Assembly (NCBI RefSeq): GCF_000353285.1
Contig: NZ_KB731324.1
Span: 1,072,577-1,136,576 of the forward strand
DNA length: 64,000 bases
Reading direction: 5' to 3'
Origin: Leptolyngbya boryana PCC 6306
Lineage (GTDB): Bacteria > Cyanobacteriota > Cyanobacteriia > Leptolyngbyales > Leptolyngbyaceae
Shown here piece by piece: positions 40,414-42,686 of the stretch. Position numbers and translations under genes: made by a program. The notes below the pieces were generated by a model. That model saw nothing but the letters and a program-made list of their open reading frames with translations. It did no database searches and was not told the origin of the DNA. Each line of letters begins with the position of its first letter. The stretch's first letter is position 1.

Positions 40414-41820
40414 TCAACTGTCAGATCTTTTATGTAAATCCAGAATTGCTTCGATGCGATGGCGCTGGATTTTTCCTTGCAAACTTCGTGGGATCTGAGC
40501 GACAGCGATCCATCGTTTAGGAATTTTGAATGAAGTTAAGTGTGATTTTAAGGCAGTTTTAATCTCTTCAAACGTAACCGTTTCATCATCAGGAACATAA
40601 ATTGCCGTCACGCTCTGTCCCCAGATTTCGTCCGGAATTCCTAAAACGTGAATATCTCGGACAAGATTGGTTGATCGAATTGCAGATTCCACTTCTGCCG
40701 GGAAAATGTTCTCACCGCCGCTAATGATCTTGTTGCTGTCACGACCGATGAGATGGAGATAGTTTTGTTCATCAAAGTATCCCAAATCGTCAGGTTCAAA
40801 GGTTTCAGGCTGATCGAGATTCGGGTAATACCCAAGCATCAAGGATTTTGAGCGGATTAAGAGTTTTTGATGAGCGATCGTAATTTCTGCATGAGGTAAA
40901 ACTTGCCCACACCCTTGAACACCCTTGAGAAAATCAGCAGGTTTGAGCGTTGCAATCTGAGAAGCAGTTTCGGTCATCCCGTAAGTTGGGGCGATCGGAA
41001 GATGTTTCAATCGTGCGTCTTCAAGGAGATTTGACCAAGCGGGTGCGCCTCCGAGCAAAATGGTTCTGAATTTGGCGAGCCAATCTGCATGAGGCATCAA
41101 TTGCTGGAGTTGAGTCGGAACCAGAGAGATGAAGAAGTTTTGCGGATCGAAGTCGGTGTTTAGATTTTTCCAGGATTGAAGCGTGAATGTGCCGTTTGTG
41201 AGCAGCGATCGCATCAATTGCATTAAACCGCTGACGTGATAGAGCGGGAGAACGCAGAAAGAGTTAATGCGATCAAGTTCAAAATATTGGCGAAATCCTT
41301 GAACAGAAGCAGTGAGAGTGTCCCAGGTGTGAATTGCAAACCGAATTTTGCCAGAAGTGCCTCCAGTCGGAATCATGATCAGCAGCGCTTCGTGCTGAGC
41401 TTCAGTCGGCTTCAGTACCCTAAATCCCTCATTCTGGGGGACTTTGAAATCAGGAAATTCTCGACATTCAAAGTCCCCCAAAATTGGGGGATTTAGGGGG
41501 CGATTCTCCAAGCCTTCCACAAACCTAGGTTCTCCCCAAATCAGAGTCGGTTGAGCCAATTCAAACACCTGTTTCCATTCGGTTTCGCCCCAATCTGGAT
41601 TGCAAAGAAACAGTTCACAAGGCACAGAACAAGCTGCAATAAATCCTGCCATCCATTGAATTGGATCTCGATCGCATAAAAACACGGTCACGCTCGCGTG
41701 TGCCGGAGGCATCGCCCGCTCATATTTCAATAACTCTCGATACCGCAGTTCAGCAATTTCCTGAACTCGGCGACGCTCTACAAAATCAAATGTCGCTAAT
41801 CGACTTAAAGGCTCTTCCAT
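40414..41820 (-). CDS. menE: 2-succinylbenzoate-CoA ligase MenE, with in-frame repeat insert
   Basis: AMP-forming ligase that activates o-succinylbenzoate with CoA in phylloquinone synthesis. The 468-residue protein has the P-loop MIPTGGTSGKIRFA, LPLYHVSGLMQL, YGMTETASQIA, and C-terminal GRDSNKIISGGENIFPAEVE and LTSFKIPKRW. Residues about 108-136 (PLNPPILGDFECREFP, then FKVPQNEGFR) are unlike other MenE sequences and are encoded by the palindromic repeat at 41417-41499. The gene overlaps menC by 16 bases. Confidence 0.9.
   Translation of the reverse strand: MEEPLSRLATFDFVERRRVQEIAELRYRELLKYERAMPPAHASVTVFLCDRDPIQWMAGFIAACSVPCELFLCNPDWGETEWKQVFELAQPTLIWGEPRFVEGLENRPLNPPILGDFECREFPDFKVPQNEGFRVLKPTEAQHEALLIMIPTGGTSGKIRFAIHTWDTLTASVQGFRQYFELDRINSFCVLPLYHVSGLMQLMRSLLTNGTFTLQSWKNLNTDFDPQNFFISLVPTQLQQLMPHADWLAKFRTILLGGAPAWSNLLEDARLKHLPIAPTYGMTETASQIATLKPADFLKGVQGCGQVLPHAEITIAHQKLLIRSKSLMLGYYPNLDQPETFEPDDLGYFDEQNYLHLIGRDSNKIISGGENIFPAEVESAIRSTNLVRDIHVLGIPDEIWGQSVTAIYVPDDETVTFEEIKTALKSHLTSFKIPKRWIAVAQIPRSLQGKIQRHRIEAILDLHKRSDS
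41417..41499. repeat. Palindromic repeat element inserted in menE
   Basis: Two arms of about 31-33 bases, the left beginning at 41418 with CCCTAAATCCC and ending GGGGGACTTTGAA, the right its near-perfect inverse complement ending at 41499, with about 18 bases between. The translation in menE reads NPPILGDFE and VPQNEGF, a peptide that recurs at interrupted sites in cyanobacterial proteins. The insert is in frame and has no stop. Confidence 0.8.
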
Positions 41821-42686
41821 AACTCCTCAAAGTCTTCGCTATTCAGTTCATCAAACCAATGCGTTGTCCCGTAGCCAACGGCTCGCTGACTCAGTTCCGC
41901 TGCCAGTTGTAATCCTGCCCGACGACCAATCTCAGTCTCAAACACTGTTGAAAAAACTGTATCGAGTTGATGTTCTCGACAAAATTGGCGCAGTTGAGAA
42001 GGAAAGCCCGCGATCGCTGGTTTAACCACAAAAATTCCGCGCCAGCCTCGCTCATAACACGCTTTCAATTGAGCCAAAGTTGAGACAGACTCATCTAATG
42101 CGATCGCAGTTCGATACATCTGGCTCAACTTCAGCATGGTTTCAAACTGATCGGTTCGCATCGGCTGCTCGATAAATTCAATTCTGGATTGATCACAGAA
42201 TTCGAGCCATTGATGCGTTTCAGATTCCGTTAACCCCATGTTTGCATCGAGTCTTAAGTTTGCATGTTGCGGTAATTGATCCAGTAAGGCTTGGACTGTT
42301 GCGATTTCGATTTCGATTGGAGCGATCGCGATTTTCAATTTAAACGTTCGATAGCCCTGATCCCAGAGCGATCGCCATTCATCAGACATCAAAGCACTCT
42401 GAGGCATTGCTTGGAATTGCTCTGAATTCAGCGCCGACTCAAATCCAAATTGACACGCTGGAAACGGAATTTGTTGAATCCAATCGAGATCGATGTCATG
42501 GGGAGCAGATTGGCAAAGCTCGATCGCGTCTTGCATCGATTCTGAGCCAAACCACTCCAGTGGCGTAATTTCTCCAAAGCGATCATCTAATCGGATTAAA
42601 ATTCCTTCCCGGACTGACCATTCTCCATAATGTGTTTTGAGAGATTGGCGAAATCGTCGTTGATAAGGTCGAAATTCAAATTGCAT
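41805..42686 (-). CDS. menC: o-Succinylbenzoate synthase MenC
   Basis: 293 residues, enolase-superfamily dehydratase that forms o-succinylbenzoate from SHCHC. The muconate-lactonizing-enzyme barrel is visible: TFKLKIAI (Lys general acid/base), NLRLDANMGLTESE (metal Asp), EFIEQPMRTDQFE (Glu), ALDESVSTL (Asp/Glu) and FVVKPAIAG (second Lys). The gene overlaps menA by 11 bases upstream and menE by 16 downstream, so the three are translationally coupled. Confidence 0.92.
   Translation of the reverse strand: MQFEFRPYQRRFRQSLKTHYGEWSVREGILIRLDDRFGEITPLEWFGSESMQDAIELCQSAPHDIDLDWIQQIPFPACQFGFESALNSEQFQAMPQSALMSDEWRSLWDQGYRTFKLKIAIAPIEIEIATVQALLDQLPQHANLRLDANMGLTESETHQWLEFCDQSRIEFIEQPMRTDQFETMLKLSQMYRTAIALDESVSTLAQLKACYERGWRGIFVVKPAIAGFPSQLRQFCREHQLDTVFSTVFETEIGRRAGLQLAAELSQRAVGYGTTHWFDELNSEDFEELWKSL

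Follow-up and report, generated by a model that had tools for sequence, protein, structure and literature searches.

The window, meaning the whole 64,000-nucleotide stretch analysed here (G000:C1:1072577-1136576), lies within the 7.26-Mb genome of the cyanobacterium Leptolyngbya boryana PCC 6306 (G000) and carries menE, the gene for o-succinylbenzoate--CoA ligase. The identity of the product is given by the NCBIfam models PRK07445 and menE as well as by the Pfam AMP-binding and C-terminal domains, and the invariant motif residues are retained (e.g., T152-G154, E284, G369-E370, and K450). A sequence-only reading of this DNA had described an 83-nt palindrome inside the gene. Inverted arms are indeed found at that place (41426-41448/41467-41489, 87% complementary; 41418-41440/41476-41498, 83%), and the palindrome is better described as two inverted hairpin units of 34–35 nt separated by an 18-nt spacer, spanning 41415-41501. 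The features of the locus, in window coordinates, are as follows.

40414-41820, minus strand: menE, o-succinylbenzoate--CoA ligase of 468 aa with an in-frame insert (open reading frame, NCBIfam, Pfam).
41407-41517, minus strand: codons of MenE residues 102–138, the sole stretch with pLDDT below 50 (AlphaFold2).
41467-41501, minus strand: first hairpin unit U, GCCCCCTAAATCCCCCAATTTTGGGGGACTTTGAA, full consensus, translated as PLNPPILGDFE.
41449-41466, minus strand: 18-nt spacer separating units U and U'.
41415-41448, minus strand: second unit U', inverted, reading FKVPQNEGFRVL.
41385-41414, minus strand: outer arm TGAAGCCGACTGAAGCTCAGCACGAAGCGC (LKPTEAQHEA), matching the arm AGAAGCCGACC-AAACGAAGCGA found beside the core in other copies.
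42406-42435, minus strand: the menC site (NSEQFQAMPQ), empty here and filled by one unit (SPLNPPxxGDFE) in six congeners.

The core in menE (41415-41501, minus strand) thus consists of two inverted units of the form GCCCCCTAAATCCCCCA-n-TGGGGGACTTTGAA plus the spacer, which on the coding strand read GCCCCCTAAATCCCCCAATTTTGGGGGACTTTGAA, 18 nt, and TTCAAAGTCCCCCAGAATGAGGGATTTAGGGTAC. Unit U' is slightly decayed, with GTACCC in place of GCCCCC and CCCTC in place of CCCCC. The entire palindrome lies within the 468-aa reading frame and contains no stop codon, in agreement with the earlier statement that the frame is kept. About 28 residues had been regarded as foreign to MenE; foreign they are, and the segment is longer, as the conserved arm of ~30 nt (41385-41414) adjoins the core on its coding 3' side. 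In the AlphaFold2 model (28 sequences, mean pLDDT 86), which is confident outside residues 102–138, this segment sits between the strand formed by residues 93–96 and the P-loop strand 147–151, in keeping with the placement of the insert in a loop ahead of the P-loop. Read as RNA, the coding strand of the palindrome is predicted to fold into one long hairpin of -62.6 kcal/mol (z -6.1; dinucleotide shuffles, -38.1 +/- 4.0). None of the Rfam families matches this hairpin at its cut-off, and matches to miRNAs are those of generic hairpins.

The corresponding loop of MenE (strand 93–96 to P-loop) differs strongly among relatives. In G002 and G011 it is short and free of the unit; G000, G001, G016, and G027 have doublets there, G005 and G007 have one unit each, G004 retains a remnant, and G003 and G006 possess a different palindrome. 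A wider survey of MenE also found the unit in G143, which belongs to another family, and a unit-like sequence in family f25. Two side observations concern this loop: the other palindrome family (GCCCCGGAATGGAATTCGGGGCTAAC..., with AAGTCCACTGAAGGGGACTGAAG) stands in frame in the MenE loop of G006 and G003, and a third palindrome type (CACCCCCCTACCCCCCTCTCC) was noted in the same loop at locus L033. In the MenE tree, in which the placement of G016 is unsure, carriers of the unit are spread over separate genera, and the insert is missing from G011, which is the sister of G027; more than one insertion is therefore needed. In several genera, this one MenE loop has received insertions separately, and the palindromes involved are sometimes unrelated. 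The alignment of orthologues further bears on the idea that the residues are native loop sequence and the palindrome coincidental. The loop is variable in length and composition across cyanobacteria, but the residues do not occur without the palindrome, the loop of close relatives being either empty or occupied by whole, half, or other palindromes, and near-identical 35-nt units are present at tens to hundreds of sites per genome and in unrelated proteins. This idea is refuted.

The expectation that further copies would exist in the genome proved correct, with ~15 loci of the unit identified by BLAST and 29 matches to a covariance model. The same model yielded from at least 58 to at least 121 matches in each of six congeners, at least 33 in a seventh (G004), and at least one match in 46 genomes out of the 58 that were searched; unit matches of a position weight matrix far exceed those in reversed-sequence controls. 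Plasmids carry the unit as well, singly in Synechocystis PCC 6803, Gloeocapsa, and Moorena, and as whole doublets in Pseudanabaena. Two more unusual arrangements were observed, namely a tandem array in G027 (C102:118392-118979) of a ~185-bp repeat including the unit and a beta-like end (see below), and an element of ~75 bp in G011 (L293-L296; GAGTCACTGCGTTGGGCGGGTTCCCCGACTTAAGGCAAGTGACGT) that lies within the hairpin loop of the unit, between CCCCC and GGGGG, producing nested palindromes.

In-frame copies occur in at least six enzymes: MenE, MenC, BioF, CobN, CobB, and EgtB. The peptide had been suggested to recur in other cyanobacterial proteins, and in the latter five it does, as SPLNPPxxGDFE, SKSPxxGGFRG, or KVPQNGGFRG. 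Orthologues free of the insert are known for MenC (two), BioF (seven), and CobN (four). The MenC unit is absent from G000, G004, and other genera. The BioF insert of ~54 extra residues is found only in G001, the site being empty in seven congeners, and in G002 the two flanking matches abut exactly. The CobN insert is shared by the clade G001/G005/G007 and missing in G000, G003, G004, and G006. CobB carries a copy in G001, and EgtB contains two single units in G003 as well as a copy at the same linker in G000. As a candidate, a unit stands in frame in a linker of MenD in this genome (G000:C1:320510-320545; NSKSPKLGGFRGL), which after MenE and MenC is the third phylloquinone-pathway enzyme concerned; this MenD has no net extra length compared to that of Listeria. 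A family-2 glycosyltransferase of this genome is a further candidate for an in-gene unit, and a doublet was seen in frame in an 814-aa reading frame of G002 (C117) with an NTPase-like region (GEPGAGKTT).

The usual form of the element, as seen in 1.6 Mb from seven genomes, is a head-to-head doublet of ~82 or 105 bp whose flanks are conserved as arms of ~30 bp (AGAAGCCGACC-AAACGAAGCGA on one side). In relatives, many copies additionally possess outer terminal repeats of two kinds, termed alpha and beta, around the shared core, so that full elements measure ~175–200 bp and resemble miniature inverted-repeat transposable elements (MITEs) with the core inside. The palindrome had been taken as the mobile unit; mobile it is, and in relatives it forms the core of this larger element. 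The alpha terminal inverted repeat is AACGTSARTTCGAYGA (element of ~160–200 bp in total), the beta repeat CTACCGTGTACACACAAGT (mostly ~170–200 bp, with TA at both ends), and paired terminal repeats lie mostly 154–201 bp apart and enclose the core. Direct repeats of at least 5 bp flank 7 of 13 alpha copies compared to 2.6% of mismatched pairs, and those of at least 4 bp flank 8 of 13 compared to 7%. The terminal inverted repeats expected of a MITE are present in relatives as alpha and beta pairs flanking the core, and alpha copies also show target-site duplications of 5–6 bp, while the TA at both beta ends is inseparable from the terminal repeat itself. The menE copy of G027 has alpha-like ends when read by eye. 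The menE copy of L. boryana comprises the core and one arm without a clear terminal repeat or target duplication, and its transposition is accordingly inferred from relatives.

Short beta copies nearly always retain part of the core or remnants of units; the core may therefore never move alone. The possibility that the core is a separate element nested in beta was rejected, no clean core-free beta having been found. Among nine genomes, no autonomous partner with matching ends was detected, all beta pairs lying 86–375 bp apart. A perfect beta end of 28 bp is separated by 13 bp from a fragment of an IS630 element. This adjacency is attributed to coincidence because other copies of that insertion sequence end in GCTATA directly after the gene, and IS630 was rejected as the parent of the beta ends. 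Separately, two IS630-family copies in this genome (G000:C1:223000 and 32155) are 99.6% identical over 956 bp, marking a recently active insertion sequence. A preference of beta for the centres of palindromes is striking in single copies and not significant overall.

Inverted hairpin pairs with spacers of variable length, present in many copies and mostly between genes, are also typical of REPINs, in which an inverted pair of short REP hairpins is moved by a RAYT (Y1) transposase; REPs and REPINs are known to be intergenic with some copies in reading frames, and their GTAG and CGTC families include the cyanobacterial GTAG-12, -15, and -16 (PMC3733652). The consensus described here, however, ends in GCCCCCTAAAT and ACTTTGAA and has neither a GTAG nor a CGTC terminus. 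Furthermore, in this genome and eight others searched, no unit occurs within 1.5 kb of any of the 21 Y1_Tnp loci, on which ground a RAYT/Y1 transposase was rejected as the driver, and G005 and G016 are rich in units yet devoid of any Y1_Tnp match. Terminal repeats and target duplications rather suggest a MITE of the DDE type, and an identity as REPIN is very improbable.

Most copies in relatives are intergenic. Outside the men loci, only 2 of 57 sampled elements are genic in a sample partly chosen around consensus copies, though reading frames cover 83% of the DNA. In L. boryana itself, three to four of the 15 loci examined lie in genes; few copies are left in this genome and the genic share is higher. 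It is conceivable that intergenic copies decay or are deleted, while the loss of a coding copy would endanger the reading frame. The elements are not specially readable: 1.47 of six frames per element are open compared to 2.20 in shuffled sequence, and the core length modulo 3 is random. An element adapted for being read was consequently rejected, and given the mostly intergenic location, the making of protein is best seen as an occasional outcome, not as a design. The proposal of a mobile palindrome that makes protein sequence, comparable to the Rickettsia palindromic elements (RPEs), therefore holds with respect to in-frame copies in enzymes and needs correction on this point. Likewise, the recurrence of the PLNPPxxGDFE frame requires no selection for the peptide, because the other two sense frames of the consensus unit are closed by TAA and TGA.

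A different pattern emerges from the codons of the inserts. In MenC of G001, G002, G005, G006, and G007, all nine codons of the unit that encode the same residue are invariant, compared to 67 of 188 elsewhere in the gene; expressed by agreement between these menC genes, the inserted codons are identical and other same-residue codons agree at 59–80%. In MenE, eight of eight same-residue codons are identical between G000 and G005, as opposed to 144 of 289 (50%) in the remainder. The codons of the element are thus identical across species where the remaining gene has diverged to 50–64%, which simple inheritance of one old neutral insertion does not predict, as divergence would be expected. Possible explanations for this identity are gene conversion by the many copies in the genome, recurrent insertion at one site, or constraint acting on the hairpin. 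That genomic copies rewrite the coding ones, by conversion or repeated insertion, is a tentative suggestion; it would amount to concerted evolution within enzymes, with the DNA being kept while the gene diverges.

The identical codons in MenC and MenE, together with the very stable fold and the repeated hits in men genes (MenE, MenC, and the MenD candidate), are also what might be seen if the hairpin were a functional RNA or DNA element selected in these genes for mRNA processing, pausing, or stability, with the peptide as a by-product. Such a role appears unlikely, since the element is abundant in the intergenic DNA of many genomes and resides in the unrelated enzymes BioF, CobN, CobB, and EgtB, MenE of G002 and G011 does without it, the hairpins of G003, G004, G005, and G007 are halved or collapsed, and no Rfam family matches at cut-off. 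The segment in menE is instead very probably a copy of a non-autonomous, MITE-like palindromic mobile element which landed in frame in a tolerated surface loop, and the interpretation given by the sequence-only reading is in this respect supported. According to the proposed course of events, a copy in a stop-free frame and of frame-keeping length would have entered the surface loop of MenE, and its translation, as modeled, would add ~38 disordered residues directly before the P-loop, and these would be tolerated. The family is built on a core of two inverted hairpin units and a spacer, to which relatives add arms and an alpha or beta terminal repeat, and is probably moved in trans by a DDE transposase. 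The rarity of copies in genes may stem from purifying selection that removes those breaking the frame or lying in unsuitable places, and survival in MenE from the permissive loop. The simplest account would be transposition everywhere, with selection sparing those in-gene copies that keep the frame in loops and linkers.

Mobile palindromes within proteins have been described before. The RPEs and the protein-coding palindromes of Wolbachia are mobile elements of MITE size that form stable stem-loops and are tolerated in frame in conserved enzymes (PMC2229807, PMC10969869). The cyanobacterial element is likewise a mobile palindrome with a stable stem-loop, inserted in frame in conserved enzymes (MenE, MenC, BioF, CobN, CobB, and EgtB), with insert-free orthologues on record, a comparison resting on architecture and behaviour. 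In contrast to RPEs, nearly half of which lie in genes (PMC10969869), only a small minority of the cyanobacterial copies in relatives is genic; moreover, the hosts are free-living, and there are two kinds of terminal repeat with target duplications. ERIC and the 107-bp Correia/NEMIS elements are non-autonomous, carry terminal inverted repeats, and occasionally form in-frame fusions (PMC2229807). The present element shares all three properties, but differs in that a two-hairpin core is common to two types of terminal repeat and one MenE loop is reused by separate insertions. Unlike REP/REPIN-RAYT systems, it lacks the GTAG/CGTC tag and a linked Y1 transposase. Nezha and other previously described elements are likewise MITEs of cyanobacteria (cited in PMC10969869), with which the present family might be identical. 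The element therefore behaves like an RPE, has the architecture of a MITE, and does not qualify as REP/RAYT. A review from 2024 deemed similar events conceivable in other prokaryotes, and a literature search, whose scope did not extend to older papers on cyanobacterial repeats, returned neither protein-coding palindromes in cyanobacteria nor the sequence of the unit. In-frame mobile palindromes are already known from Rickettsia, Wolbachia, and a few MITEs; the cyanobacterial case is new to the literature searched.

The best-known protein-coding palindromes are those of the Rickettsiales, obligate intracellular bacteria in which weak selection offers a convenient explanation. The same process is seen in cyanobacteria that are free-living and have large genomes, three of the enzymes having empty sites in near relatives, which makes it testable how mobile DNA supplies enzymes with new segments. 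In addition, caution is advised with annotated cyanobacterial proteins, in which transposon-derived loops are present.
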